This document shows positions 1 through 21,005 of a stretch of DNA of 21,005 nucleotides, piece after piece. Numbering within the stretch: the first letter of the stretch is position 1; each line of letters opens with the position of its first letter. The DNA comes from a virus. A program made the position numbers and the translations under genes. The DNA lies in IMG/VR virus record IMGVR_UViG_3300042860_004674, positions 1-21,005 of that record. One strand, written 5' to 3'. The notes beneath the pieces were generated by a model. The model made no database searches. It saw only the letters and a program-made list of their open reading frames with translations, and was not told the DNA's origin.

Positions 1-1171
1 TGCTGTAGCCCGTGACGTTCGCGGCGGCTTCTTTGTAGGACGTTTCCAGGGCGTCGGTCCAATCCGGACGGAACTGGAACGGGGCTCCCCGGCTGGCATC
101 CGATTGGCCAAACGCCAGTGTGCAGGTGCTGGTCGCGAAGTTTCCGATGGCGACGACCTCGTCGTAGGAGGTTGTCACTGACTCGACGATCCGGGCCTGC
201 ACGTCCAGCGCCGTCTCGAAATCGAGCTCGACCGGGTCGGCGTTGCCCGGCAAGATTTTCCCCTCGGGCAGCAGGATGTCATCGGCTCCGAACGAAAACG
301 GCACGATCGTCGCGCGGCCCCGGGGACCCGGCGTTTCCTCGTAGCGGATCGTGTAGCCCAGGCCCCGACGGACGGGGATCGCCTCGTCGAGCAACTGCTT
401 CAGCGTGCGACCGTCGGTGCGAAGCACCGGCTCATACCAGGCCAGTCGGGTGTCGCCGGGCTCACCGTCGAGCACCCAGTCGCAGACCGGTTCGTCGTTG
501 CCATCGACCGGCGGGGTGAGTTTGAGCAACGCCCGGACAATGTCGTCCGCGGTCCATTTGGCCTCGCTGGTGACTGTGCGGCTGAGCCAGTAGGTGAGAT
601 TGGGGTTCCCGAGCTGCGGGTCGGCGGTGCGATTTCCCTGCCGGGTTGCCGTGCGGCGGTGGTACTGGTTGTACTCGGCTCCCTGTTCGAGCACCACGCG
701 CTGTTCCGGGTAGGTCGCGTTTTGACTCGCGTCGACCTCGCAGGACATCACCACAGCCCGCTCGAGCAGCCGGGCCAGTCCGAACGCGGTGAACCGCTGG
801 CGCCCCCGGGGGAGATCGGCGTTGGGTCCAGATCCGTGCGGAACGCTGTCGTCGATCTCGCAGATGCCGTACCAGGTGACGTCTGCGCCGTCGAGCGTGG
901 TTTCCTCCAGCACCACCTTGACGTACGACCCGATCAGCGTCAGGGGCTCGTAGAGCTTGAATGCGGTGCCATCTTCGCGGGCGATCTCGCCGTAAATGTA
1001 CGAGAGGTGGCACTCGTCGACCCCCGGGCAGGCCCGCAGCGCCAGGTCGTCGGCGTAGAGGTAGGGAACTTCCTCCCAATCGGCCCCCAGCGTGTCGGAC
1101 CGGTAGACCCGCGAGCGGACGGCGTCGCGGATCTGAGATTTGGTCGTGTTGATCTGGGTGGCTGCGGGCAT
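1..1171 (-). CDS. tail hub-like structural protein (partial, cut by window edge)
   Basis: The frame is open from the ATG at 1171 to base 1, giving 390 codons with no stop, so the C-terminus lies outside the window. The start overlaps the stop of the preceding gene as TGATG, which indicates translational coupling. The protein begins MPAATQINTTKSQIRDAVRS. Around residues 76-110 it has a beta-rich stretch containing TWYGICEI, and around 122-136 it has GRQRFTAFGLARLLER. This W-x-G followed by F-x-G-LL arrangement recalls tail hub and baseplate-type domains that bind the tail tip. Its place after the tape measure and a small tail protein fits a hub or host-contact protein (lambda L/J region). The family assignment is inference from position and general pattern; that the gene is coding is clear from the long open frame and tight packing. 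Confidence 0.75.
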   Translation of the reverse strand, partial: MPAATQINTTKSQIRDAVRSRVYRSDTLGADWEEVPYLYADDLALRACPGVDECHLSYIYGEIAREDGTAFKLYEPLTLIGSYVKVVLEETTLDGADVTWYGICEIDDSVPHGSGPNADLPRGRQRFTAFGLARLLERAVVMSCEVDASQNATYPEQRVVLEQGAEYNQYHRRTATRQGNRTADPQLGNPNLTYWLSRTVTSEAKWTADDIVRALLKLTPPVDGNDEPVCDWVLDGEPGDTRLAWYEPVLRTDGRTLKQLLDEAIPVRRGLGYTIRYEETPGPRGRATIVPFSFGADDILLPEGKILPGNADPVELDFETALDVQARIVESVTTSYDEVVAIGNFATSTCTLAFGQSDASRGAPFQFRPDWTDALETSYKEAAANVTGYS

Positions 1172-1596
1172 CAAGTGGGTTCCAGCATGGGCTGCAGGGT
1201 CCACACCACCTCGACATAGGCGGTGGATCCCGAGACGGCCCCCCCGGCCCGGGCCAGCAGTCGGGCGGAGCGACTGACCACACAGTCGAGCACGGCGAAC
1301 CGCACGCCGAAGGTGGCCTGATAATCGACGTCCTGCCAGATCACGTTGACCACGGTGCCGATCAATGCCTGATAGGACAAGGTGGCGAGGGGAACCACCG
1401 CCAAGCTGGCGACGTCGACAAAGGCCCGCATGGAGAAGGGGTCAGAGCGTTTGCCGAGCCTGAGCACGGCAGTCCCGTCGACGCCGGGCCGGTTGATCAC
1501 CTCGCACTGCTCGCGCGGCAACAGCGGCCCCCCCCGGGGATCGTCCACCCGGTGCAGCGTGATGAAGCCGTATTGGCCGACGTAGCTGTACCCCAT
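1171..1596 (-). CDS. small tail-tip protein (Dit/lambda M-like by position)
   Basis: This 141-residue protein starts at the ATG at 1596, which overlaps the tape measure stop as TGATG. AAGGAG lies 7 bases upstream, so this ATG is preferred to the GTG one codon earlier. It begins MGYSYVGQYGFITLHRVDD and has alternating hydrophobic stretches (VNVIWQDVDYQATFGVRFAVL at about 84-104), suggesting a beta-rich fold. No catalytic motif is visible. Proteins encoded directly after the tape measure in siphoviruses form the distal tail ring or tail tip, and that is the likely role here. The family is not recognised with certainty. Confidence 0.7.
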   Translation of the reverse strand: MGYSYVGQYGFITLHRVDDPRGGPLLPREQCEVINRPGVDGTAVLRLGKRSDPFSMRAFVDVASLAVVPLATLSYQALIGTVVNVIWQDVDYQATFGVRFAVLDCVVSRSARLLARAGGAVSGSTAYVEVVWTLQPMLEPT

Positions 1597-8042: not shown

Positions 8043-10670
8043 TCACGCCCCGTTGTTCTTGTACAACCCGCGGTAGTCGATCGCCTTGGCGGCAAAACAT
8101 TGGTAGACCCGGAACGCGATGGCCAGGCGGTCAAACATCGTCTGCCGTTCGAACGCGGGGGTTTCCAGTCCCTGCAGGTAGGCGTACTCGACTGTGTCGA
8201 CCGCCGTGTTGGAAGCGGCGAGGTACCAGGACGTGTCACTGCCACCCGTCGCAGCCGCCGACAACTCCACGTCGATGATCGGCGTGAGACCGTTCGACCA
8301 GATGTTCGTGACGTTGGCGTTCGCGCTGGCGGGGTCGGTGGTGCTGTTGAGCACCTGCAGCACGGTCCCGCGAATCGCCGGAGGAGCCAGCACGTACCGG
8401 GGTTCCACCGCCACAAACACCGACGAGTTGAGGCCCGTTTGTTTGGCCATCAGGTTGTAGGCGACGTTGAGCGCCGCCACGCTGAACACCGTCCCCGTTC
8501 CAGTCAGGTTGTTCCGCCCGGCGGCAAACAAGGCGGTTCCATCCGACAACGCGGCGTTGTCCTTCAGGACTTGGTAGACGATGCGGTTTTGTTTCCGGCG
8601 CATCGCCGCGCCCTGCTTGGCTGGGATGTCCGTCAGCGCCGCCAGCCGGTCATCGACCACGGTCTGCCACCCGATCGAAAACCGTTCGCCCCAGGTGGTC
8701 AGCGAATACGACTCGCGACCATCGACGAGTGCGGTCTCCTCGAAGGTGCCGTTCTCGGGGATCGCCTGCGGATCCGACAACTCACCGGCGATGACCTTGT
8801 GCACCGGCTTGAAGTCCTGCAGGCTTTCGCCCTGCTTGGCCCACGCGGTGAAACTGGTGGCCTGCTCGGTGTACGACCGCCGCAGCATGACATTTGCCGC
8901 ATCGAACAGCAGATTGCTGAACTGGGCCCGGCCGTTGTACGCGGCCCCCTCCGCGCGGAGAAACCCAAAGTCCGCGGGCTCGGCCCCCATCACGAGCCGG
9001 GCCACGTCGGCATTCGCCAGCGTGTTGACGATGCGCGGATCAAAACCGGCGACAATCAACGACTGCCGGGCGAGATTCGGCAGACTCGCCAGATGGTGGT
9101 TCTGCCGACCAGGTCTCCAATCCACGAAGTCCTGCGCTCGCGGCGACCAGATCTGGTTGGGACGGTCCCCACCAAACGCCCGCTGCAGAATCGCATCGCG
9201 GGCCGCCGCTTGGAACCGGTCAACCTCCGCCTCACCCCCCTCAATCCGCAAACCTGCGGTGGGATTGGCGGCGACCGACCGCTGCTGGATCTGCGCGACG
9301 ACTCCCTGGGTGGTCAGCGTGGCAGCCTGACCCGACAGCGACTGGATCACCTCCAGCTGGGCCGCCGCGTCGAGGTTGCTCACCCGCACCATGGCAATCG
9401 CGTCGGTCAACGGGACGGGCGCGGTGGCGCTCGGCTGGCTGGCGGGGGCCGCCACCGGGGCAACCACCGCCGCGACCTGCTGCGGGACGGCGGTCGAGCT
9501 GGTGGCGTAGGCCCGGACAGCGCCGATGGCCTCAACCTGGGCCTCAACCGACGCGGTGAGGTCGCAGTGGGCCAGGGCCAGCATCGTCTGCCGGGCGCTC
9601 TCGGCCTGATCGTGGGTGGCCCCGGCGCTGATCGCACCGGAGCGGATGAGGGCGGTCAGGATCGCGGGATCCATACGAAGACTCTCCAAAAAGGGAATTG
9701 CGGGGCGGGCGGGTGCCCCAGATGCGGTTGGCGAGACCCCACCCGGGGTGCCTGATCCGCCCAACAGTTCGGCCAGCACCTGATCCAGGGTGGCGATGCG
9801 GTCAATCATGCCGGCGGCGAGTGCCTCGCCGGCTGAGAGTGTGCGGCCTTGTCCGAAGTTCGCAGCGATGGCGGTCACGGGAAGGTTTCGCCCCGTCGCC
9901 AGCGCTTGCAGGAAAGTCTGGTGAAGTTCCGCGAGCCGGGCCTGCAGCCGGGCCGCGGCCTCAGCGGACAGCGGTTCGACGGAATTGAGTTCGGCCTTGT
10001 AGGCCACTGACCGGAAAACGGTGGTCTTGATCCCGTTTTGGGTGTCCGCCTGGCTGGTTTCTTGGTGGATCGCAAGCACGCCGACCGAGCCGACTTCCGC
10101 CGAGGGACTCGCGACGATTTCGGTGGCCGACGCGGCGATCCAGTACGCGGCCGACGCGGCCAGGTGGTTGGCCACGGCGATGACTCGCTTCGAGCCCCGC
10201 GCCTCGAGGATCTGGGCCGCCAGCTCGGGAATTCCCGCCACCGCACCGCCGGGGCTGTTGAGGTCCAGGACGATGGTGCCGACGTCGGGGTTGGCCACCG
10301 CCTCGCGGAAGGCCGTCGCGATTGCTTCCGAGGAAACAAACCCGCCCCCGCTGGCGTTCGCCGCGTCGATGCGGCGGGGAACAATCGTCCCCAGAATCGA
10401 CAGCACCGCCACCGAGCCCCCCGCGGCGGTCGACTGCTGGGCCTGCGCGGAACGTGCCGGAAGCACCGCCAGTATCTCGGACGGCAAGACCGCGCGGTCC
10501 CGCAGCCCGTCCAGCCGCGCGGCAATCTCGTCGCCGGTGAACTCCAGCCCCGCCCGGCGCAGCGAGAGCACCTCACAAATCGCGTCGAGTCGGTCGGGGT
10601 CAATCGCCCACAGATTGCCCACCGCCTGGGCGACCAGGCGGCGCATCGCGTGGCGTCGTTCAGCAGGCAT
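8043..10670 (-). CDS. ClpP/S49-like prohead protease - scaffold - major capsid protein fusion
   Basis: This single 875-residue ORF starts at ATG 10670, overlapping the portal stop as TGATG, with GAGAGG just upstream. Residues about 85-300 form a SppA/S49-type serine protease domain. It has NSPGG (138-142) at the oxyanion site, Ser173 in HLAASAAYW as nucleophile, VGSVGVLA (193-200), and Lys225 in SVAYKAE as the likely general base. Residues about 330-480 are Ala/Gln/Val-rich and scaffold-like. Residues about 485-875 form the capsid domain, with TTWGERFSIGWQTVVDD (658-674) and a long helix TDIPAKQGAAMRRKQNRIVY (680-699). Protease/capsid fusions are known in phage annotation. The protease would mature the shell. 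A strong internal start at 9674 may release the scaffold-capsid part separately. Confidence 0.85.
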   Translation of the reverse strand: MPAERRHAMRRLVAQAVGNLWAIDPDRLDAICEVLSLRRAGLEFTGDEIAARLDGLRDRAVLPSEILAVLPARSAQAQQSTAAGGSVAVLSILGTIVPRRIDAANASGGGFVSSEAIATAFREAVANPDVGTIVLDLNSPGGAVAGIPELAAQILEARGSKRVIAVANHLAASAAYWIAASATEIVASPSAEVGSVGVLAIHQETSQADTQNGIKTTVFRSVAYKAELNSVEPLSAEAAARLQARLAELHQTFLQALATGRNLPVTAIAANFGQGRTLSAGEALAAGMIDRIATLDQVLAELLGGSGTPGGVSPTASGAPARPAIPFLESLRMDPAILTALIRSGAISAGATHDQAESARQTMLALAHCDLTASVEAQVEAIGAVRAYATSSTAVPQQVAAVVAPVAAPASQPSATAPVPLTDAIAMVRVSNLDAAAQLEVIQSLSGQAATLTTQGVVAQIQQRSVAANPTAGLRIEGGEAEVDRFQAAARDAILQRAFGGDRPNQIWSPRAQDFVDWRPGRQNHHLASLPNLARQSLIVAGFDPRIVNTLANADVARLVMGAEPADFGFLRAEGAAYNGRAQFSNLLFDAANVMLRRSYTEQATSFTAWAKQGESLQDFKPVHKVIAGELSDPQAIPENGTFEETALVDGRESYSLTTWGERFSIGWQTVVDDRLAALTDIPAKQGAAMRRKQNRIVYQVLKDNAALSDGTALFAAGRNNLTGTGTVFSVAALNVAYNLMAKQTGLNSSVFVAVEPRYVLAPPAIRGTVLQVLNSTTDPASANANVTNIWSNGLTPIIDVELSAAATGGSDTSWYLAASNTAVDTVEYAYLQGLETPAFERQTMFDRLAIAFRVYQCFAAKAIDYRGLYKNNGA
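9672..9688 (-). promoter_or_regulatory. internal ribosome-binding site and ATG inside the protease-capsid ORF
   Basis: GGAGAG (9687-9682) lies 7 bases before an in-frame ATG (9674-9672) at codon 333. Initiation here would give a 543-residue scaffold-capsid protein without the protease. The spacing and strength are as good as those of true gene starts in the window. It mirrors lambda C/Nu3, where the scaffold is made from an internal start in the protease gene. Actual use is inferred. Confidence 0.6.
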
Positions 10671-12603: not shown

Positions 12604-12840
12604 TCATTTCCGGACAATGTGGCCGAGCCGCACCCGCCCGCCCCGCTGTTGCAGTGCAACCTCGCGATTGAGCACCGAGCGCAGCCGCTGCAGGGCGTCC
12701 AGAGTCGTCGCAAACTCGGCCCGCCGGACCCGGCGCCCGTCGGGGAGCTGGTATTCCTGGCAGTTCGTGTTGGCGAGCGACTCCAGCAGGCCCGCAATTG
12801 CGGCGTTCGTCGAGTCGAGCAGTTGGGAGGGGGTGGCCAT
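12604..12840 (-). CDS. gpW-like head-tail joining protein
   Basis: This 78-residue protein starts at ATG 12840; an ATG 13 codons upstream (12879) is possible but adds an odd MGFFPPSVQYGSC leader. The N-terminal helix (SQLLDSTNAAIAGLLESLAN, 5-24) leads to YQLPDGRRVRRAEFATTLDALQR (30-52). A beta hairpin followed by a helix is the gpW layout. Lambda W is of similar size (68 residues), and it too lies between terminase and portal genes. It would add to the portal after packaging and provide the site for the FII-type protein. It is the first minus-strand gene after the plus-strand island, so it may need its own promoter; none is clear. Confidence 0.6.
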   Translation of the reverse strand: MATPSQLLDSTNAAIAGLLESLANTNCQEYQLPDGRRVRRAEFATTLDALQRLRSVLNREVALQQRGGRVRLGHIVRK

Positions 12841-12904: not shown

Positions 12905-13007
12905 CACGGAATTCCGGGAAAAATCTGGATCCACGGAACTGGTGACCGGCAAGGACTTCCGTGGAATCACGGGGCGACACACGGACAAAACGCGGGGAAT
13001 TTCCGTG
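12905..13007. repeat. CACGGAA/TTCCGTG motif cluster, possible operators
   Basis: CACGGAA occurs at 12905-12911 and 12932-12938. Its complement TTCCGTG occurs at 12957-12963 and 13001-13007. The middle two form an inverted repeat (TCCACGGAA with TTCCGTGGA, 18 bases between). The first copy overlaps a palindrome CGGAATTCCG (12907-12916). The last copy ends 8 bases before the -35 box of the plus-strand promoter. Another CACGGAA lies at 13460-13466 ahead of the second promoter. These could bind a regulator such as the helix-turn-helix protein encoded at 15039-15254. Confidence 0.45.
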
Positions 13008-13015
13008 TTTGTGCC

Positions 13016-13043
13016 TTGTCAAACAGACGATATCGCTTATTAT
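13016..13043 (+). promoter_or_regulatory. promoter P1 of plus-strand island
   Basis: TTGTCA (13016-13021) and TATTAT (13038-13043) are separated by 16 bases and resemble -35 and -10 boxes. The -35 context GCCTTGTCAAAC is repeated exactly at promoter P2 (13512-13523). The predicted transcription start falls at about 13050, on the A of a leader ATG. The promoter faces the small plus-strand genes. Confidence 0.6.
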
Positions 13044-13049
13044 TCAACC

Positions 13050-13073
13050 ATGTCAGACGCACAACGCGGATGA
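13050..13073 (+). CDS. possible leader peptide MSDAQRG
   Basis: ATG 13050 opens a seven-codon frame MSDAQRG ending in TGA at 13071-13073. The first 20 bases from 13049 are identical to the leader of the second promoter (13550-13569). The ATG sits 7 bases after the -10 box, so the message could start on it. Either the peptide or only the RNA sequence may matter. Confidence 0.3.
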   Translation: MSDAQRG

Positions 13074-13095
13074 CGCCAACCCGAGGAGATGAGTG

Positions 13096-13377
13096 ATGGA
13101 CAAGTACACGACGAACGCGGTTTTCACCCCTGCCGATAACAAGCCCGTGGTTGTCCAGATCCAAGGGCCTGAATGCGTGGGACAGGCGGGACGGAATGAC
13201 GACTACGTTTACCGCTACTTCGTGTGGATGGAGAACGAGGACGGAAACGAAGTGGGCCGGATTTACGAGTGCAGCAGCTACGGGGCCGCCCAGTCGCTCG
13301 GCAACAAGATTGCCGCTGACCGAGGGCTGGAAATCAATGACGAGTCGCAGCCGATGACTCGACGCGGGTACTATTAA
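13096..13377 (+). CDS. small hypothetical protein, first island gene
   Basis: This 93-residue acidic protein starts at ATG 13096 with GAGGAG 7 bases upstream; a GTG one codon earlier is also possible. It begins MDKYTTNAVFTPADNKPVVV. Residues about 36-60 read VYRYFVWMENEDGNEVGRIYE, a strand pair with an acidic turn. A helical part follows (YGAAQSLGNKIAADRGL), then a tyrosine-ending tail. No family is recognised. It is transcribed from P1, and a 44-bp hairpin unit follows its stop. Its small size, acidic charge and place in an independently promoted cassette are typical of phage accessory proteins. Confidence 0.75.
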   Translation: MDKYTTNAVFTPADNKPVVVQIQGPECVGQAGRNDDYVYRYFVWMENEDGNEVGRIYECSSYGAAQSLGNKIAADRGLEINDESQPMTRRGYY

Positions 13378-13382
13378 CACAA

Positions 13383-13426
13383 CCCCCACACGCCCCCGGG
13401 ACTGGCTCGGGGGCCAATTATCCGGC
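13383..13426 (+). repeat. type A intergenic hairpin unit, copy 1
   Basis: This 44-bp unit contains GCCCCCG (13392-13398) and CGGGGGC (13408-13414), a 7-bp stem with a 9-base loop. It matches 14579-14622 at 41 of 44 positions. It follows the stop of the first island gene by 5 bases. It lacks a T run, so it may be a transcript-end or processing element rather than a standard terminator. Confidence 0.7.
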
Positions 13427-13514
13427 AATAATGAACACCTCCAGTCTATTCGATTCTTCCACGGAAGGCCCGTTTCGGAGTCCAAAAAATCCCCGGTTTT
13501 TTGTGGTTTCCGCC

Positions 13515-13544
13515 TTGTCAAACGATCGATACCGATCGTATAGT
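13515..13544 (+). promoter_or_regulatory. promoter P2 of plus-strand island
   Basis: TTGTCA (13515-13520) and TATAGT (13539-13544) are separated by 18 bases. The -10 box aligns with that of P1 at the same distance from the conserved leader, while the -35 is 2 bases farther away. The predicted start is at about 13551, again on the leader ATG. CACGGAA at 13460-13466 lies upstream. Confidence 0.6.
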
Positions 13545-13550
13545 TAGAGC

Positions 13551-13601
13551 ATGTCAGACGCACAACGCGAACGACGCCAACCCCGCGAGATGATGACATG
13601 A
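13551..13601 (+). CDS. possible leader peptide MSDAQRERRQPREMMT
   Basis: ATG 13551 opens a 16-codon frame that shares MSDAQR with the first leader. It ends in a TGA (13599-13601) overlapping the ATG of the next gene as ATGA, so ribosomes reading it would be delivered to that start. The peptide is short and basic. It may exist only for translational coupling. Confidence 0.35.
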   Translation: MSDAQRERRQPREMMT

Positions 13602-13834
13602 GCCGATTGATTGCCAGCCGCACGCTGACCGGAACACCCCGCTTTATTGGAAAGCCGATGACCTACACGGTTGAGGTCTTTGACAACCCGCACGAAAAGA
13701 ATCCCGGATGCCGTTTTTCTGTGCATATCAATGGGGTTGCCCGTCGCTGGGTTGCGTCCGAAAGAAGTGCAATTATCCAAATGAATCGTGCTGCAATTGA
13801 GCCGTGGGGCTGTCAGCTCTGCTTCTATCGGTAA
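13598..13834 (+). CDS. small hypothetical protein, second island gene
   Basis: This 78-residue basic protein starts at ATG 13598, coupled by ATGA to the leader frame. GCGAGATGATGAC precedes it but is a weak ribosome site. It begins MSRLIASRTLTGTPRFIGKP. The pattern YTVEVFDNPHEKNPGCRFSV looks like two beta strands around a charged turn; a helix (ASERSAIIQMNRAAIEP) and a CQLCFYR end follow. C72 and C75 form a CxxC pair. No family is recognised. It is driven by P2 and is followed by the 55-bp type B unit. Confidence 0.7.
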   Translation: MSRLIASRTLTGTPRFIGKPMTYTVEVFDNPHEKNPGCRFSVHINGVARRWVASERSAIIQMNRAAIEPWGCQLCFYR

Positions 13835-13848
13835 CCACCCCCACCACC

Positions 13849-13903
13849 CGCCCCCGGCACACCGCCGGGGGCTTCCTCAAGCTGATGGAGATGATGACAG
13901 ATG
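13849..13903 (+). repeat. type B intergenic hairpin/RBS unit, copy 1
   Basis: This 55-bp unit has a perfect 9-bp stem, GCCCCCGGC (13850-13858) with GCCGGGGGC (13864-13872) around a 5-base loop. TTCCTC follows, then a purine-rich ribosome site with GGAG (13887-13890) 10 bases before the ATG of the next gene. It equals 14131-14185 at 53 of 55 positions. Confidence 0.8.
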
Positions 13904-14122
13904 GATTCCACGTACGAGATTGGCGGACTCACCATCAAGATGACACCTGCAGCGGCTGCACGCTGGAATGCAGGCATGGCGACCCTAAATGATCTGCGCA
14001 GTTCGCGGGTGCATTTGCCCAGCGAGGACCGAGAAATCACCCTTCGGCGTGCGGTGTCGGACAGACTGCAACCGGAAGTTGCCAATCAGATGTTTGGAAT
14101 GCCTGCAAACGCGATTGAGTAG
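13901..14122 (+). CDS. small hypothetical protein, third island gene
   Basis: This 73-residue protein starts at ATG 13901, with GGAG 10 bases upstream inside the type B repeat. It begins MDSTYEIGGLTIKMTPAAAA, a strand then a helix. The rest is mainly helical (RWNAGMATLNDLRSSRV, EITLRRAVSDRLQPEVANQM). Size and helical content would suit a small DNA- or protein-binding factor, but no motif is recognised. It shares its upstream unit with the next gene, so the two were probably placed here with the same expression module. Confidence 0.7.
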   Translation: MDSTYEIGGLTIKMTPAAAARWNAGMATLNDLRSSRVHLPSEDREITLRRAVSDRLQPEVANQMFGMPANAIE

Positions 14123-14130
14123 TTGCCTAC

Positions 14131-14185
14131 CGCCCCCGGCACATCGCCGGGGGCTTCCTCTAGCTGATGGAGATGATGACAGATG
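14131..14185 (+). repeat. type B intergenic hairpin/RBS unit, copy 2
   Basis: This is the second copy of the 55-bp unit, with stem 14132-14140/14146-14154 and loop ACATC. It differs from copy 1 at one loop base and one base after the stem. It again ends in the ATG of the following gene and supplies its ribosome site. Confidence 0.8.
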
Positions 14186-14572
14186 TCGACGACCAAAACG
14201 ATTGCTGCTTTCAAAAGCGGCCGAAGTTCATGCGTCCCCGGCGTGAAATACGATGCCCGCCGATTGCGTCTGTATTACTGGATTGACGCGTCGAACAATC
14301 CCGTGGATGTGTCGGCCAATCGTCATTTTCTGCAGTATTTTACGAAAGACGGCGTCTTCATGGGTCCAGACGGAGATGGTATCCAACCTGTGTTTCGTAA
14401 TGACCACCTAGAGGTACAGAACGCTACGTGGGGCTGGTTGTTCGATTTCCGCGACGACGACTACATCGGTCGGCCCGCTACCAGAGAGGAGCGCGAGGCG
14501 AGCTTGCTGGCTGGTCCTCGTGGTCCGATTCGTGTTGACGGACGATTAGCGTACGTTCGGGACTATCACTAG
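14183..14572 (+). CDS. hypothetical protein, fourth island gene
   Basis: This 129-residue protein starts at ATG 14183 using the type B ribosome site. It begins MSTTKTIAAFKSGRSSCVPG. RRLRLYYWIDASNNPVDVSA and HFLQYFTKDGVFMGPDGDGI (about 26-66) look like strand-turn-strand pairs rich in aromatic residues; a central WGWLFDFRDDDYIG is acidic and aromatic. No enzyme motif is seen. Two rows within the gene count to 48-50% GC (14281-14400), far below the capsid gene, which suggests a different origin. A type A hairpin unit follows its stop by 6 bases. Confidence 0.75.
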   Translation: MSTTKTIAAFKSGRSSCVPGVKYDARRLRLYYWIDASNNPVDVSANRHFLQYFTKDGVFMGPDGDGIQPVFRNDHLEVQNATWGWLFDFRDDDYIGRPATREEREASLLAGPRGPIRVDGRLAYVRDYH

Positions 14573-14578
14573 TTCCCA

Positions 14579-14622
14579 CCCCCACACGCCCCCGGGATTG
14601 GCTCGGGGGCCAACCATCCGGC
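14579..14622 (+). repeat. type A intergenic hairpin unit, copy 2
   Basis: This is the second copy of the 44-bp unit found at 13383-13426, with three base differences (one in the loop, two after the stem). The stem arms GCCCCCG/CGGGGGC are preserved. It follows the fourth island gene and precedes the fifth by 34 bases. Confidence 0.7.
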
Positions 14623-14656
14623 CATTCCGGATAGTTCACCAAACCACAAGGATTGA

Positions 14657-15019
14657 ATGCCCGTGAAAATTGGATTTCAGGAGGTCGTCGACAGCGAACA
14701 TGGGCCTGTCACGCTCCCATGGAGACTGCGACTCCTTGTCGATGTCGAATTGGACGTGGAGCTTGCAGGAAAAGACGTGCTTTTGAAGTGTTGGCAACCG
14801 GACGACCCCAGGGGGGTGCCGCAGGAATTTGATGAGCTTTCTGCCAAAAAGGCTGAAATCAAGACGTGGCATCCAACGATCAGCCATGAACAAGTTGCAC
14901 AGTTTTTGCGAACAGCTCAGCAAAAACTCGACTTGCTGATTTCTTCCGGGCCAATTTGTTCTTGTGCCGACTGCACACCCTGCCGCAATGCCCACTCGCG
15001 TCGCACTACCTCGAAATAG
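14657..15019 (+). CDS. hypothetical protein with C-terminal cysteine cluster, fifth island gene
   Basis: This 120-residue protein starts at ATG 14657 with AAGG 5 bases upstream. Residues 20-46 are strand-rich (LPWRLRLLVDVELDVELAGK), and 75-97 form a helix (SHEQVAQFLRTAQQKLDLLI). The C-terminus holds C101, C103, C106 and C109 in CSCADCTPC, followed by a basic tail (RNAHSRRTTSK). The cysteine cluster could bind zinc or a metal-sulfur site. No family is recognised. A helix-turn-helix gene follows after 19 bases, so the two are likely on one transcript. Confidence 0.7.
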   Translation: MPVKIGFQEVVDSEHGPVTLPWRLRLLVDVELDVELAGKDVLLKCWQPDDPRGVPQEFDELSAKKAEIKTWHPTISHEQVAQFLRTAQQKLDLLISSGPICSCADCTPCRNAHSRRTTSK

Positions 15020-15038
15020 TCACCCCGACCACCACACC

Positions 15039-15254
15039 ATGCCCAAACGCCCAACCAAACCGACTCCCCCCTACACCTCGGCGGAGGTCGCCACGATGCT
15101 CGAACTGTCCGCCCCATCGATCCGCCGCCTGGCCAAGTCCCTGCAGGTCGGCACCCGCAAGGGCCACGACTGGTTTTTCACGGACGCTGACGTAGCGACC
15201 CTGCGGACACGCCCCGGGTGGGGTGGCTCTCGGCGGAAGGTGGCCACCCCATGA
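15039..15254 (+). CDS. small helix-turn-helix DNA-binding protein (excisionase/MerR-type fold)
   Basis: This 71-residue protein starts at ATG 15039. The frame is open upstream, but the earlier ATGs at 14964 and 14988 would overlap the preceding gene. Residues 11-33 (PYTSAEVATMLELSAPSIRRLAK) form a helix-turn-helix, and GHDWFFTDADVATLRTRPG (42-60) is the wing and helix usual in excisionase-type regulators. The ends are basic. There is no ribosome site at the start. Its stop overlaps the ASCH gene as ATGA. Being the only regulator in the island, it is the natural candidate to bind the CACGGAA repeats at P1. An excisionase role is the alternative. Confidence 0.8.
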   Translation: MPKRPTKPTPPYTSAEVATMLELSAPSIRRLAKSLQVGTRKGHDWFFTDADVATLRTRPGWGGSRRKVATP

Positions 15255-15739
15255 AAGCCCTCACGATTAGAGAACCGTGGGCCAGCCTGATCGCTGACGG
15301 CGGCAAACTGATCGAGAACCGCAGCTGGTTCACGCGGTACCGGGGGCCCCTGGCGATCCACGCGGGATGCGGGTGGGAACGTCGCGCGGGGGAATTGATG
15401 TCGGTCGCTCTGGGGGCCACCGTCCCGCAGCCAATCCGCCACCACCACACCGCCGGGCGCGTGCTGGCCATCGTCGAGTTGGTCGACTGTGTGCCGCTCG
15501 ACGAGCTGGCTGACCGCTACCCGATGCACGCGGCGACTAACCGACAGCATCTGTTCGGTCCGTGGTGCTGGGTGCTCGACCAGGTGCAGCCGGTCGACAC
15601 ACGCTATTCAGTCCCGGGCCGCCTCGGGCTCTGGGATTGGTCTCCGACACAGGCCCCGGTCCCCATGGGCTGTCCCTCGACAGTGGTCGACCTGGCTCGC
15701 CTGCAGTCCGGTTTTCGCGCGTTCGCGTCGCCAGGTTGA
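15251..15739 (+). CDS. ASCH domain protein
   Basis: This 162-residue protein starts at ATG 15251, coupled by ATGA to the helix-turn-helix gene, with GGAAGG about 10 bases upstream. The start MKALTIREPWASLIADGGKL, then IENRSWFTRYRGPLAIHAG (21-39), is the typical phage ASCH opening. VLAIVELVDCVPL (71-83), LFGPWCWVLDQVQP (101-114) and GRLGLWDW (123-130) complete the fold. ASCH domains resemble PUA and bind RNA or modified bases; a few are nucleases or amidohydrolases. In phages their role is mostly unknown. The last 32 residues after GLWDW are low in structure and run into the convergent junction with the minus-strand block. Confidence 0.85.
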   Translation: MKALTIREPWASLIADGGKLIENRSWFTRYRGPLAIHAGCGWERRAGELMSVALGATVPQPIRHHHTAGRVLAIVELVDCVPLDELADRYPMHAATNRQHLFGPWCWVLDQVQPVDTRYSVPGRLGLWDWSPTQAPVPMGCPSTVVDLARLQSGFRAFASPG

Positions 15740-15824
15740 ACTCCTCGGCAAGCACGTCGCGCGGGTCTTCGCGGTGCAGGCCCAGACTGCGAGTGAGCTG
15801 GGCCACCTGTTCCGCGGGCGTCAT
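15537..15824 (-). CDS. doubtful ORF starting by ATGA overlap, perhaps truncated gene remnant
   Basis: ATG 15824 overlaps the zinc-ribbon gene stop as ATGA. The first 38 residues (MTPAEQVAQLTRSLGLHRED and onward) look like a genuine small helical phage protein. After about residue 39 the frame turns Pro/Arg/Gly-rich and runs antisense to the ASCH gene, as a shadow frame would. It may be the start of a former late gene cut off by arrival of the plus-strand island. It has no ribosome site of its own. Confidence 0.25.
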   Translation of the reverse strand: MTPAEQVAQLTRSLGLHREDPRDVLAEEFNLATRTRENRTAGEPGRPLSRDSPWGPGPVSETNPRARGGPGLNSVCRPAAPGRAPSTTDRTDAVG

Positions 15825-16228
15825 GCCGCCGGAGTGACGTCAAGTTCCGCGCGGTCCGCCTCGCTGGCAAGGTTGCGCAGTTGCGTGGCGATTTTGCGGA
15901 CGCTGTTGACGTCCAGGACGACCACCTGGCGCGTGCCCACCGTCGAGCAATTGCGGGCCTCCTTTTCCAACGTTTCGGCCAATTCCTCGGCCCACTCGCT
16001 GGCCCGGCTGTATTTGGCGCCGGTCTGCTTCCAGGTCTTGCCGCAGTCGTCACACACGCAATGCCGGACGCGTCCGGCCGTCTTGTAAACCCGGGTCCGG
16101 CCGTGCTCGGGATTGACCGGACACACCGCCCGCCGCATTCGCCCGTTGAGCCCGGTGGCGCTGTCGGTCGCCTCGGTGGCTGCTTCCTGCACGGGCTGCT
16201 CTGGCAACAATTCACGTTGTTTGGCCAT
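15821..16228 (-). CDS. zinc-ribbon protein following terminase
   Basis: This 135-residue protein starts at ATG 16228, one base after the terminase stop, with GGAG 7 bases upstream. Residues 36-69 hold CPVNPEHGRTRVYKT and HCVCDDCGKTWKQ; C36, C57, C59, C62 and nearby His residues can form a zinc ribbon of the kind found in DNA-binding and transcription proteins. A helix (YSRASEWAEELAETLEKEAR) and a C-terminal helix (SVRKIATQLRNLASEADRA) follow. Its tie to the terminase gene suggests a role in packaging or in late transcription. The exact function is unknown. Confidence 0.7.
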   Translation of the reverse strand: MAKQRELLPEQPVQEAATEATDSATGLNGRMRRAVCPVNPEHGRTRVYKTAGRVRHCVCDDCGKTWKQTGAKYSRASEWAEELAETLEKEARNCSTVGTRQVVVLDVNSVRKIATQLRNLASEADRAELDVTPAA

Positions 16229-18763: not shown

Positions 18764-19013
18764 CGACGCCTTCGGCCGAGACCTCGAGCCGGATGGCCGG
18801 TTGCGGCGGCGCGGGCTTCGCGGTGCGACCGATTCGGAGGTTTTGCTCATTCATCTGCACCAACGCCAAGGCGGCGGCGATCCGGTCCTTGGGGGCCTGC
18901 AGTTTGTCGGCCGCCATCTGGGCCAGCACCGCCGGCAGGATCCGCCGCGCGTTGGGGCCGATCTCCCAGGGGCCCGCCTCGGTCGGTGGTGGGGATGTGG
19001 TCGCCTCATCCAT
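18681..19013 (-). CDS. small protein upstream of terminase, unknown
   Basis: This 110-residue protein starts at ATG 19013 and overlaps the preceding gene by 8 bases. Its core (GPNARRILPAVLAQMAADKL then DRIAAALALVQMNEQNLRIG, about 19-62) is two helices, typical of small phage proteins coded ahead of terminase. The C-terminal third is Ala/Pro-rich. It overlaps the start of the small terminase gene by 83 bases, which is unusual. No function is known. It might be a terminase accessory factor or a DNA-binding regulator. Confidence 0.65.
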   Translation of the reverse strand: MDEATTSPPPTEAGPWEIGPNARRILPAVLAQMAADKLQAPKDRIAAALALVQMNEQNLRIGRTAKPAPPQPAIRLEVSAEGVDAIRANLLGRLVATGLPGPAAATPTAD

Positions 19014-20301
19014 GTCTGACCCTGTAGGTGAAGGGATCTAATCGTCCCCCATTCCCCAACCGTTCTACCCGGCTTGATGTGCCGGCGCGTTGCCACCACT
19101 TGTGGAAGGTCGCGAACGAAACCCCAAGAATCTGGCAATACCGTTCCGCTGTGCGGTTGGGAAACTGATCAATCACGCCCGTGAAATCCACATCGCGCAC
19201 GCGTTGCCCGACCCCTGGGGAAACCTCGGGCCCGACGTAGGCAAAGCTGGCACTGAGCCGACCGAACGACTCGGTTTTCCGGAACTTTCCTTTTTGCTTC
19301 GGGCACGACAGGGCAGAGATCGACCCACACAGCCGCCAGCTCTTCGAACGGGTCCGGTGGTGGATCATGGCGGGATGTCCGGACCGGCTGTAGAAGGTGA
19401 ATCCCAGGCCGGTGTAGATCGCAGCGATGGCCTCGCTCACCGCACTGCCGAGCCCCACCCCCTGAAAATCCGGCAGGCAGACGATGCGGTGTTCACGCCG
19501 GCAATCCTCGTTCTGGCCACGATGGTTGATCACCGCCGCGAACACCGCCGGGCGCTGCTCGACGGTGGCCAGCCAGCATTCCGCGGCGTGGCTGAGATCG
19601 GCACTTAGATAGTGATGGTGTGCGAACATTCGCCAAGCCGCTGCAGAGCACCGGTAGATTTCGACCTGAATGGCGGGTCGTCGCTGAAGAGACCTCCATC
19701 GGAACTCGCCGGTGTGAGGCTCGTAGGTCCAGTCCGGCTGCAGCCATTCGATGATGTCATCGTGACAGGCGACGGCCACAAATTTTTTTGTGGGTAACCC
19801 CCGCACCGTCTTGGCGACGGCGGCCGAGCCGATGCGGGCGACGGTGCGATCGACCACCGACGTAAACTCGTCAATGACCACCAGGTCTTGCGGGTCCGCC
19901 AAGGCCCGGGCCACCGTGGTGCGAAACTGCTCGCCATTCGACAAACACTGGAACGGCCGCAGCCAAGCCGGAGGGCTCGAAAACCCGACGCTGGAGAGCA
20001 GCCCGGTGATTTGTTTGATCGACATGTTCTCCGGGAATCCGTCGACCACCGCCGCAGTCGGCGACCACTCGTAACCGCCGACCAGGTGGGGGCCAAACAA
20101 CTCCCTGGCAATGGTGGATTTGCCGCATCCCGAGGGGCCATGGATCAGCCCAATCCGCCACGGTTTTTCAAAGGTTGGCAGCGAGACCTGCCAGCTGACC
20201 CGGGACTGTTTGGTGGGGGCCAGGTCAAACATTCCCTCGAGTTGTTTGACGCGGGCCGATCGCTCGACCCGCACCTGATTTACGACACGACGGCGCGACA
20301 C
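19006..20301 (-). CDS. ABC-type ATPase fused to GNAT acetyltransferase domain (COG2401-like)
   Basis: This 431-residue protein starts at GTG 20301 after a G-rich ribosome site and overlaps the ParB-type gene by 22 bases. The ATPase half has Walker A GPSGCGKST (55-63), signature LSNGEQ (120-125), Walker B DLVVIDEF (139-146) and a switch His180. The second half is a GNAT fold whose acetyl-CoA loop is QGVGLGSA (280-287), after HRIVCLPDF. The C-terminus (TAERYCQILGVSFATFHKWW, 384-403) looks like a helix-turn-helix. No membrane segment is present, so it is not a transporter. ABC ATPases joined to acetyltransferase domains are a known, poorly characterised family. Next to ParB and terminase it may act on DNA or on a phage or host protein. 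Confidence 0.85.
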   Translation of the reverse strand: MSRRRVVNQVRVERSARVKQLEGMFDLAPTKQSRVSWQVSLPTFEKPWRIGLIHGPSGCGKSTIARELFGPHLVGGYEWSPTAAVVDGFPENMSIKQITGLLSSVGFSSPPAWLRPFQCLSNGEQFRTTVARALADPQDLVVIDEFTSVVDRTVARIGSAAVAKTVRGLPTKKFVAVACHDDIIEWLQPDWTYEPHTGEFRWRSLQRRPAIQVEIYRCSAAAWRMFAHHHYLSADLSHAAECWLATVEQRPAVFAAVINHRGQNEDCRREHRIVCLPDFQGVGLGSAVSEAIAAIYTGLGFTFYSRSGHPAMIHHRTRSKSWRLCGSISALSCPKQKGKFRKTESFGRLSASFAYVGPEVSPGVGQRVRDVDFTGVIDQFPNRTAERYCQILGVSFATFHKWWQRAGTSSRVERLGNGGRLDPFTYRVRHG

Positions 20302-20945
20302 TCCACCCCCCTGTTCTCCAGCTCCTCCAGCAGGATTCGCTGGTGCGTTTCGTCGGTGCAGGTGATCAGAATCTGAAACCGTTCTGGCACCTCCCCGACG
20401 TTCCCCTCTGGCTCCTCCAGCTCGTCATCCGCGACGATCAAATCCAGCTCCTCCGCCAGCTCAGAAAACATCGACTGCAGGGCCTCGTCGCCCACTGCCA
20501 CCTCCCGCAACTGGCGTTCAAGGGCCGCTTTGTCCCAACCCGACATGTCTGTCAACCGGTTGTCGGCGATCGCATACGCCGTGCCGGTGGCGTTGTCCCA
20601 TTGGACCACCACAGCCGCCATCTGAGCCCACCGGTGGTCCCCCTCCGCGTACAGTCGACGGGCAGCCTCCAGCCGCCCATGCCCGGCCCGCAACAGGTTG
20701 GTCCCCGCCTGCACCACCAACGGGATGGTTTGCCCAAACTGCCGCAGGCTCCCCATCAGCGCGGTCAACTGGTGGTCGTCATGCAGCCGGGCGTTGGACT
20801 GGTCTGGCACCATCTCGGCAATGGGCATCGCAAGCACCCTGAGGCCCTCCGCAATGTGCGAGAGATCCGGCGGTCCCGGTGGCTCGGACGCGGCAGCCGC
20901 GTTCCTCGTGCGTTTCCCTGCGGTTTTGGCTGCTGTTTTGGCCAT
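20280..20945 (-). CDS. ParB/Srx-type N-terminal domain protein
   Basis: I prefer ATG 20945 (221 residues, MAKTAAKTAGKRTR); an in-frame TTG lies at 20966, and the frame is open to the window edge, so a longer form cannot be excluded. Residues 40-95 form a ParB N-domain: MPIAEMVPDQSNARLHDD, then LMGSLRQFGQTIPLVV and the nucleotide-binding box GHGRLEAA (88-95). The middle helices (YAIADNRLTDMSGWDKAALE) match phage members. The end PERFQILITCTDETHQRILL (187-206) is a separate small alpha-beta part. The chromosomal ParB DNA-binding helix-turn-helix is not evident. Such phage proteins bind CTP or nick DNA and often lie ahead of terminase; the exact role here is unknown. Confidence 0.85.
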   Translation of the reverse strand: MAKTAAKTAGKRTRNAAAASEPPGPPDLSHIAEGLRVLAMPIAEMVPDQSNARLHDDHQLTALMGSLRQFGQTIPLVVQAGTNLLRAGHGRLEAARRLYAEGDHRWAQMAAVVVQWDNATGTAYAIADNRLTDMSGWDKAALERQLREVAVGDEALQSMFSELAEELDLIVADDELEEPEGNVGEVPERFQILITCTDETHQRILLEELENRGVECRAVVS

Positions 20946-21005
20946 GGTAGTAGTATGCGACCTCAAAAAACCTTGGAAAGCGAAAAAGGCGCGAGCCGTG
21001 CGACC

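Follow-up and report, generated by a model that had tools for sequence, protein, structure and literature searches.

The DNA considered here is the IMG/VR virus record IMGVR_UViG_3300042860_004674, analyzed over its whole length of 21,005 bp and referred to below as the window. Profile searches place terL (phrog_15), the portal gene and the head protease/capsid genes on the minus strand. As an initial annotation of the window had proposed, this series of packaging and structural genes is interrupted by seven plus-strand open reading frames (ORFs) between 13096 and 15739, flanked by minus-strand genes at 12604-12840 and 15821-16228. The block consists of predicted promoters with leaders, five small ORFs, hairpin-bearing linkers, a helix-turn-helix (HTH) gene and an ASCH-domain gene, in the following arrangement.

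12604-12840, minus strand: left flank gene, called gpW-like in the initial annotation; kept in relatives
13016-13043, plus strand: predicted promoter P1, TTGTCA-16-TATTAT, 6 nt before the leader ATG
13050-13095, plus strand: leader 1, beginning AUGUCAGACGCACAACGCGGAUGACG..., with a 5' hairpin at 13052-13074; the RNA 5' end is predicted at 13050
13096-13377, plus strand: ORF1, 93 aa; a 96% identical protein occurs in the unrelated phage L038
13382-13429, plus strand: GC hairpin linker of type B, copy 1; stem-loop at 13392-13414
13515-13544, plus strand: predicted promoter P2, TTGTCA-18-TATAGT
13551-13597, plus strand: leader 2, with a 5' hairpin at 13553-13575 that has one A-C mismatch in this copy
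13598-13834, plus strand: ORF2, 78 aa; a relative only in the same phage (L002)
13848-13900, plus strand: hairpin and Shine-Dalgarno linker, copy 1; stem-loop at 13850-13872
13901-14122, plus strand: ORF3, 73 aa; a homologue in the group-C phage L036 (E 6e-32)
14130-14182, plus strand: hairpin and Shine-Dalgarno linker, copy 2, 96% identical to copy 1; stem-loop at 14132-14154
14183-14572, plus strand: ORF4, 129 aa; a two-part protein
14578-14625, plus strand: type B linker, copy 2, 92% identical to copy 1; stem-loop at 14588-14610
14657-15019, plus strand: ORF5, 120 aa, with a Cys-rich C-terminus (CSCADCTPC); a full-length relative only in the same phage
15039-15254, plus strand: HTH gene, MerR/excisionase-like winged HTH
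15251-15739, plus strand: ASCH-domain gene, following the HTH gene and conserved in the window family
15821-16228, minus strand: right flank gene, called a zinc ribbon in the initial annotation; adjoins terL

Three different repeats recur through the block: a unit of promoter plus leader (13007-13092 and 13506-13593), the hairpin and Shine-Dalgarno linker (as a repeat, 13848-13903 and 14130-14185) and the type B linker. The similarity of these repeats between the genes is far above chance, with copies of 56, 48 and 55 nt being 96, 92 and 82% identical, respectively. The two hairpin and Shine-Dalgarno linkers each fold into a 9-bp GC stem with a 5-nt loop (z-scores of -2.8 and -3.5). No T run follows the linker hairpins and a scan for intrinsic terminators returned none on the plus strand, so the linkers are not textbook terminators and that interpretation was rejected. 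Within the 39.5-kb genome of the same phage described below, leaders and linkers are confined to the array locus.

Both P1 and P2 are sigma-70-like, each matching at 10 of 12 positions, and both are found again, together with the common leader, in related and unrelated phages. A scan of both strands found 3 promoter-like sites compared with 0.9 (standard deviation 1.0) in shuffled sequences, a count that by itself is weak evidence. The inverted repeats that had been noted at the promoter are a fair description of palindromic stretches in the spacers (CGATATCG; CGATCGATACCGATCG). Across the full leaders of backbone groups A to D, which are defined below, the -10 element stands 6 nt before the leader ATG and ATGTC comes next, while the -35/-10 spacing ranges from 16 to 18 nt. 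Because the 6-nt distance is constant at any -35/-10 spacing, the RNA start is predicted at the AUG, and the array RNA should begin there.

The two leaders score 43 and 40 bits, respectively, in cmsearch. The first 26 nt of the leader constitute a hairpin in which 97% of the alignment cells are paired. In the alignment of 11 distinct rows, for which the shuffle control ignores kinship, compensatory changes on both sides occur at 3 of 7 pairs and disappear when the partners are slid. This covariation is good evidence that the leader forms an RNA structure. No known RNA family of Rfam was matched in the window or in five related loci. Short ORFs also begin at the predicted 5'-terminal AUG. At P1 it reads MSDAQRG-stop (13050-13073), and at P2 it runs for 16 codons and overlaps the start of ORF2 (13551-13601). 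A conserved leader peptide was considered and rejected, as many copies encode MSDAQR(G/E)-stop while others have an ORF of 15 to 20 codons overlapping the first gene, a pattern too variable for coding.

The base composition of the block is uneven. ORFs 1 to 5 have a guanine plus cytosine (GC) content of 53-58% and the flanking genes 66-68%, and the GC profile falls to 0.55-0.57 between roughly 12.75 and 15.0 kb. At 67-68%, the HTH and ASCH genes are at the level of the backbone, so the low-GC block ends near 15.0 kb. Thus, the GC contrast that had been reported holds for the five small genes, but the sampled rows on which it was based (57, 48 and 50% against 73%) overstate it, the mean of the capsid gene being 67%. 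Profile searches also agreed with the proposed identities of the last two genes, the ASCH protein by matches to its domain (Pfam, 9.5e-5; phrog_3193, 1e-36) and the HTH protein by a weak match in Pfam and PHROGs. The stop codon of the HTH gene overlaps the ASCH start (ATGA). The names zinc ribbon and gpW-like for the flanking genes found no support in any profile match.

Contigs of close relatives, with backbones 71-95% identical to that of the window, were found through their terminase and leader and together form group A. Only the near-identical 39.5-kb record L002 (also L015), which is 99.9% identical over the common part and extends the window, carries the same five small ORFs. In L003, where the flanks are 92-95% identical and the leader, linkers, HTH and ASCH genes are all kept, five different small ORFs are present. 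L004 has two other small ORFs in the block, and further sets with one to three leaders are found in L006, L007, L030 and L037. The HTH and ASCH genes are likewise retained in L004, L006 and L007. L005 possesses none of these ORFs; about 110 bp stand in place of the block, and the right flank gene adjoins the left flank gene. A terminase tree of group A puts L005 next to the clade of the window, with an outgroup-rooted support of 0.77 (FastTree) or 87 (IQ-TREE). Loss of the array from L005 is therefore likelier than primary absence, with modest support. Thus, neither of the two outcomes that would have spoken against an accessory island was seen: the relatives do not all share the same seven genes, and profile searches of the small proteins turned up no match to ordinary structural proteins. 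These comparisons support the view that the block is an independently organized, hypervariable accessory (moron-like) block. After one linker of L003 comes only the 3' half of a leader, with no promoter, an arrangement that looks like a scar of recombination.

The same elements are present in phages of other kinds. DNA-pattern searches of IMG/VR recovered the leader in 13 stretches and the linker in 6, and neither pattern occurred among the 84,980 bacterial and archaeal genomes scanned. Several of the carriers have only array DNA in common with the window. In an all-against-all comparison, the window family constitutes backbone A; backbone B comprises L026, L028, L034, L038, L039 and probably L029; backbone C comprises L025, L035 and L036; and L033 possibly represents a backbone D. 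The terminases belong to different families as well, phrog_15 in group A and phrog_38 in the 44.7-kb group-B contig of L028. The complete arrays of groups B, C and D have a common order of promoter and leader, variable small ORFs, linkers and HTH gene. In L067, a C-like backbone is combined with an array end that is 91% identical to that of a group-B phage. Other arrays carry amidoligase, class-II glutamine amidotransferase (GATase) and PAPS-reductase/DUF3440 genes, suggesting mixed accessory functions rather than anti-CRISPR activity alone.

The HTH gene is homologous across the groups and is the last of the cassette row in 14 arrays, those of L035 and L039 being incomplete. A search with the HTH alignment yielded five more loci, with a leader in L064 and linker copies in L060, L064 and L065. 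When searched by sequence against the PDB, the HTH protein matched only RacA, MerR-type and BldC-like proteins, and no solved structure of an anti-CRISPR-associated (Aca) protein was among the matches. Autoregulation, or repression of the array promoters by the HTH protein, is plausible.

Single genes are the units that move between lineages. The window and the group-B phage L038 are 93.4% identical over 331 bp of DNA (window 13085-13413), starting at the Shine-Dalgarno site and ending shortly after the ORF1 stop, with at least 119 consecutive identical bases; the promoter and linker on either side are of the local type. The seven segments examined are shared across lineages by the arrays of four group-A contigs, three of them involving one gene family in one group-C contig. 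Every one of the seven comprises a single complete ORF, and all 14 ends fall between ORFs. ORF4 points in the same direction at the level of protein parts. The counterparts of residues 20-78 are stand-alone proteins in L006 (group A) and L034 (group B) and the N-terminal part of a protein in L026 (group B), while residues 86-126 correspond to the C-terminal part of a 116-aa family present in L003 and L007 (group A) and L036 (group C). By these alignments, ORF4 is a composite of parts found apart in the arrays of groups A, B and C. In L036, a solo cassette on the opposite strand (943-1343, minus strand) consists of its own leader (29 bits) and a 116-aa gene homologous to the first array gene of L003.

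The small proteins themselves remain without assignment, as had been noted. Searches of Pfam, PHROGs, NCBIfam and PADLOC gave no credible match of ORFs 1 to 5 to any known family, whether anti-CRISPR (Acr), defence or other, and no relatives of ORF4 and ORF5 were found among 50,697 named phages. The structural model of ORF1, with a predicted local distance difference test (pLDDT) score of 57, is too poor for use. By eye, the Cys-rich tail of ORF5 resembles that of the last small ORF of L004.

Based on the current evidence, namely the architecture of the array, its turnover between near-identical phages, its sharing across backbones, the single-ORF transfer units and the covariation of the leader, all of which can be read directly from the compared DNA, the block is probably a promoter-leader-driven, hypervariable accessory array that is independent of the late genes and owes its diversity to recombination within or near shared linkers. 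Each array would be transcribed from a sigma-70-like promoter, and the RNA, starting AUGUC..., would fold at once into the conserved 5' hairpin. The small ORFs would follow, many of them set apart by a standard linker that supplies a GC-rich stem-loop and a ready-made Shine-Dalgarno site, with the MerR/excisionase-like HTH gene closing the row and, in the window family, the ASCH gene after it. Phages meeting in one cell could then trade single ORFs by recombining within the shared linkers or close to them, so that the platform would stay constant while the cargo changed. The HTH protein may repress the array promoters, expression would be early or from the prophage, and much of the cargo could serve counter-defence, host takeover or superinfection control. 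A further and rather improbable extension is that the leader hairpin and linkers are a standardized, portable expression platform on which unrelated phages infecting one host group exchange genes as in a common market, all of them regulated by the HTH protein. The leader might then be a cis-acting RNA signal, for instance for antitermination or mRNA protection, letting RNA polymerase pass the linker hairpins.

Several observations weigh against the proposal of such an array. The transcription start, its timing and the activity of the promoters are predictions, and the core of the promoter-spacer palindromes varies from lineage to lineage. The cassette proteins of the window have no functional match by sequence, and a fold search with the ORF4 model (mean pLDDT 73) gave no convincing match. 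Since the linkers around the segment shared with L038 are of the local type, segment ends near linkers do not prove crossover inside them. Under random placement, the probability that all 14 segment ends lie between ORFs is about 2e-7, a figure that overstates the case because similarity persists longer in coding DNA than in spacers and one gene family accounts for three of the seven segments. Groups A and B also share a second stretch, L015 8211-9490, in the region of a phrog_2045 gene, which is up to 88% identical to L042/L040 (the 44.7-kb contig), so the array is not the only DNA that is exchanged. Lastly, L025 has no HTH gene within 2 kb after its leader.

Among the alternatives, it is possible, if not favored, that the block is a bona fide acr-aca locus in which ORFs 1 to 5 inhibit host immunity and the HTH protein is an Aca that represses the operon. 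The proteins are shorter than 200 aa and encoded on one strand with gaps below 250 bp, and the HTH gene ends the cassette, which is the short-operon layout used by AcaFinder (PMC9765179). Known acr-aca operons likewise combine variable acr genes with a recurring aca gene, the quick turnover of cargo speaks for such a locus, and a conserved regulatory sequence over fast-changing ORFs resembles the anti-defence regulon of the archaeal virus SIRV2 (PMC11065993). However, none of the ORFs matches an Acr or defence-related family in the profile collections searched, some arrays contain enzymes of other kinds, the HTH protein is of MerR/excisionase type with no solved Aca structure among its matches, and linkers between the genes and a covarying leader lie outside the definition of acr-aca operons. 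Of the moron or anti-CRISPR layout that had been suggested, the moron-like block therefore stands, while the resemblance to acr-aca loci is one of layout only. Anti-defence cargo is nevertheless plausible. Somewhat less probable, and on balance unlikely, is an ordinary early or host-takeover region of ORFans with repeated regulatory sequences, similar to the SAS/ESAS elements of cluster K mycobacteriophages and placed among late genes by chance. SAS/ESAS likewise put conserved start-linked sequences before small genes of unknown function, about half with upstream inverted repeats (PMC3203893), and in the unrelated 44.7-kb group-B contig the array adjoins other small plus-strand genes. As described, though, SAS/ESAS belong to one phage cluster, whereas both the elements and single genes of the present arrays are shared by unrelated backbones. 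The difference from a recombining accessory array is mainly one of emphasis.

Two further explanations have very little probability. A site-specific cassette system, integron-like or of another kind, in which recombination takes place at the linker hairpins, would fit hairpins at gene boundaries and single-gene transfer units, and integron-type cassette sites are reported in phages (PMC9892861). This attC reading was rejected because the GTTRRRY core is absent from 13001-15260. In addition, the array contains no recombinase, the only one seen in the 39.5-kb version being a phage-type integrase, with no search aimed at IntI; the linkers also carry a conserved Shine-Dalgarno site, and the covariation of the leader hairpin points to RNA. 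Least probable of all are late-expressed genes with an accessory role in the virion or in packaging, located on the other strand. Their position between the portal and terminase genes would be consistent with this function, but they lie on the opposite strand with their own predicted promoters, have no structural profile match, and are missing or replaced in relatives with the same structural genes.

A recombining accessory array of this kind has parallels in several known systems. In SIRV2, the early genes share a common regulatory sequence and an Aca-type regulator, Aca8 (PMC11065993), and both cases combine many small, fast-changing accessory genes with one conserved regulatory sequence and a gene for a small winged-HTH regulator. 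In contrast, the array described here has a bacterial-type sigma-70 promoter, a structured RNA leader and a polycistronic order with hairpin/Shine-Dalgarno linkers, whereas the SIRV2 genes are mostly single. The likeness is one of layout, in which the HTH protein of the array is a candidate regulator. The promoter early stem-loops (PeSLs) of T4 (Arbiol 2010, Comeau 2014) combine a promoter with a stem-loop between accessory genes and are held to mediate gene shuffling (as cited in PMC4503421). The array shares this combination between exchangeable genes, but PeSLs are described for T4-like phages, and the array differs in its unrelated backbones, leader hairpin, Shine-Dalgarno-bearing linkers and constant HTH gene. 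No T4-type genes were recognized among the genes profiled, the terminases being phrog_15 and phrog_38, though the contigs may be partial. The SAS/ESAS elements also place a conserved sequence next to the start codon of small genes, with the consensus GGGATAGGAGCCC (PMC12699233). The linker here reads GATGGAGATGATGACAGATG, which is not of that type, and while SAS/ESAS are genome-wide in one cluster, the present elements occupy a single locus of the 39.5-kb genome and are common to several backbones. The combination of a covarying leader, Shine-Dalgarno-bearing hairpin linkers and a constant HTH gene across unrelated backbones was not found in searches of the open-access literature.

If the proposal of a recombining array is correct, the leader and linkers would provide a homology-free handle in the search for accessory, possibly anti-defence, genes of uncultivated phages, and the 26-nt pattern or a covariance model would retrieve arrays and hence new families of small genes. 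The arrays would also be direct sequence evidence of single-gene exchange among unrelated phages by way of a shared regulatory scaffold. Whether this scaffold of leader hairpin, linker hairpins and HTH gene is a common regulon would become testable.

Some further features of these genomes deserve mention. The group-B array of L044 (14273-16569, minus strand) includes a DUF3440/PAPS-reductase gene and two neighbors, an arrangement reminiscent of IbrA/IbrB pairs. Two arrays of the window family, L047 13520-15088 (plus strand) and L046 5809-7380 (plus strand), contain a tandem amidoligase (PF12224) and class-II GATase, profiled in L047 only. The 39.5-kb version encodes an integrase with matches to phage integrase families, which suggests that the phage is temperate. 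The same version provided no usable clue to the host from tRNA genes, the one weak tRNA-like call (L015 14316-14388, minus strand) having an incomplete anticodon. Elsewhere in the window, the minus-strand gene at 19006-20301 joins an ABC-type/P-loop ATPase part to a GNAT-like part (phrog_11143, E 3e-99, function unknown) and adjoins a ParB-like gene (20280-20966) and the small terminase gene. At 8043-10670, also on the minus strand, an 875-aa protein has matches to families of head proteases and major-head proteins throughout its length and is an apparent protease-capsid fusion.

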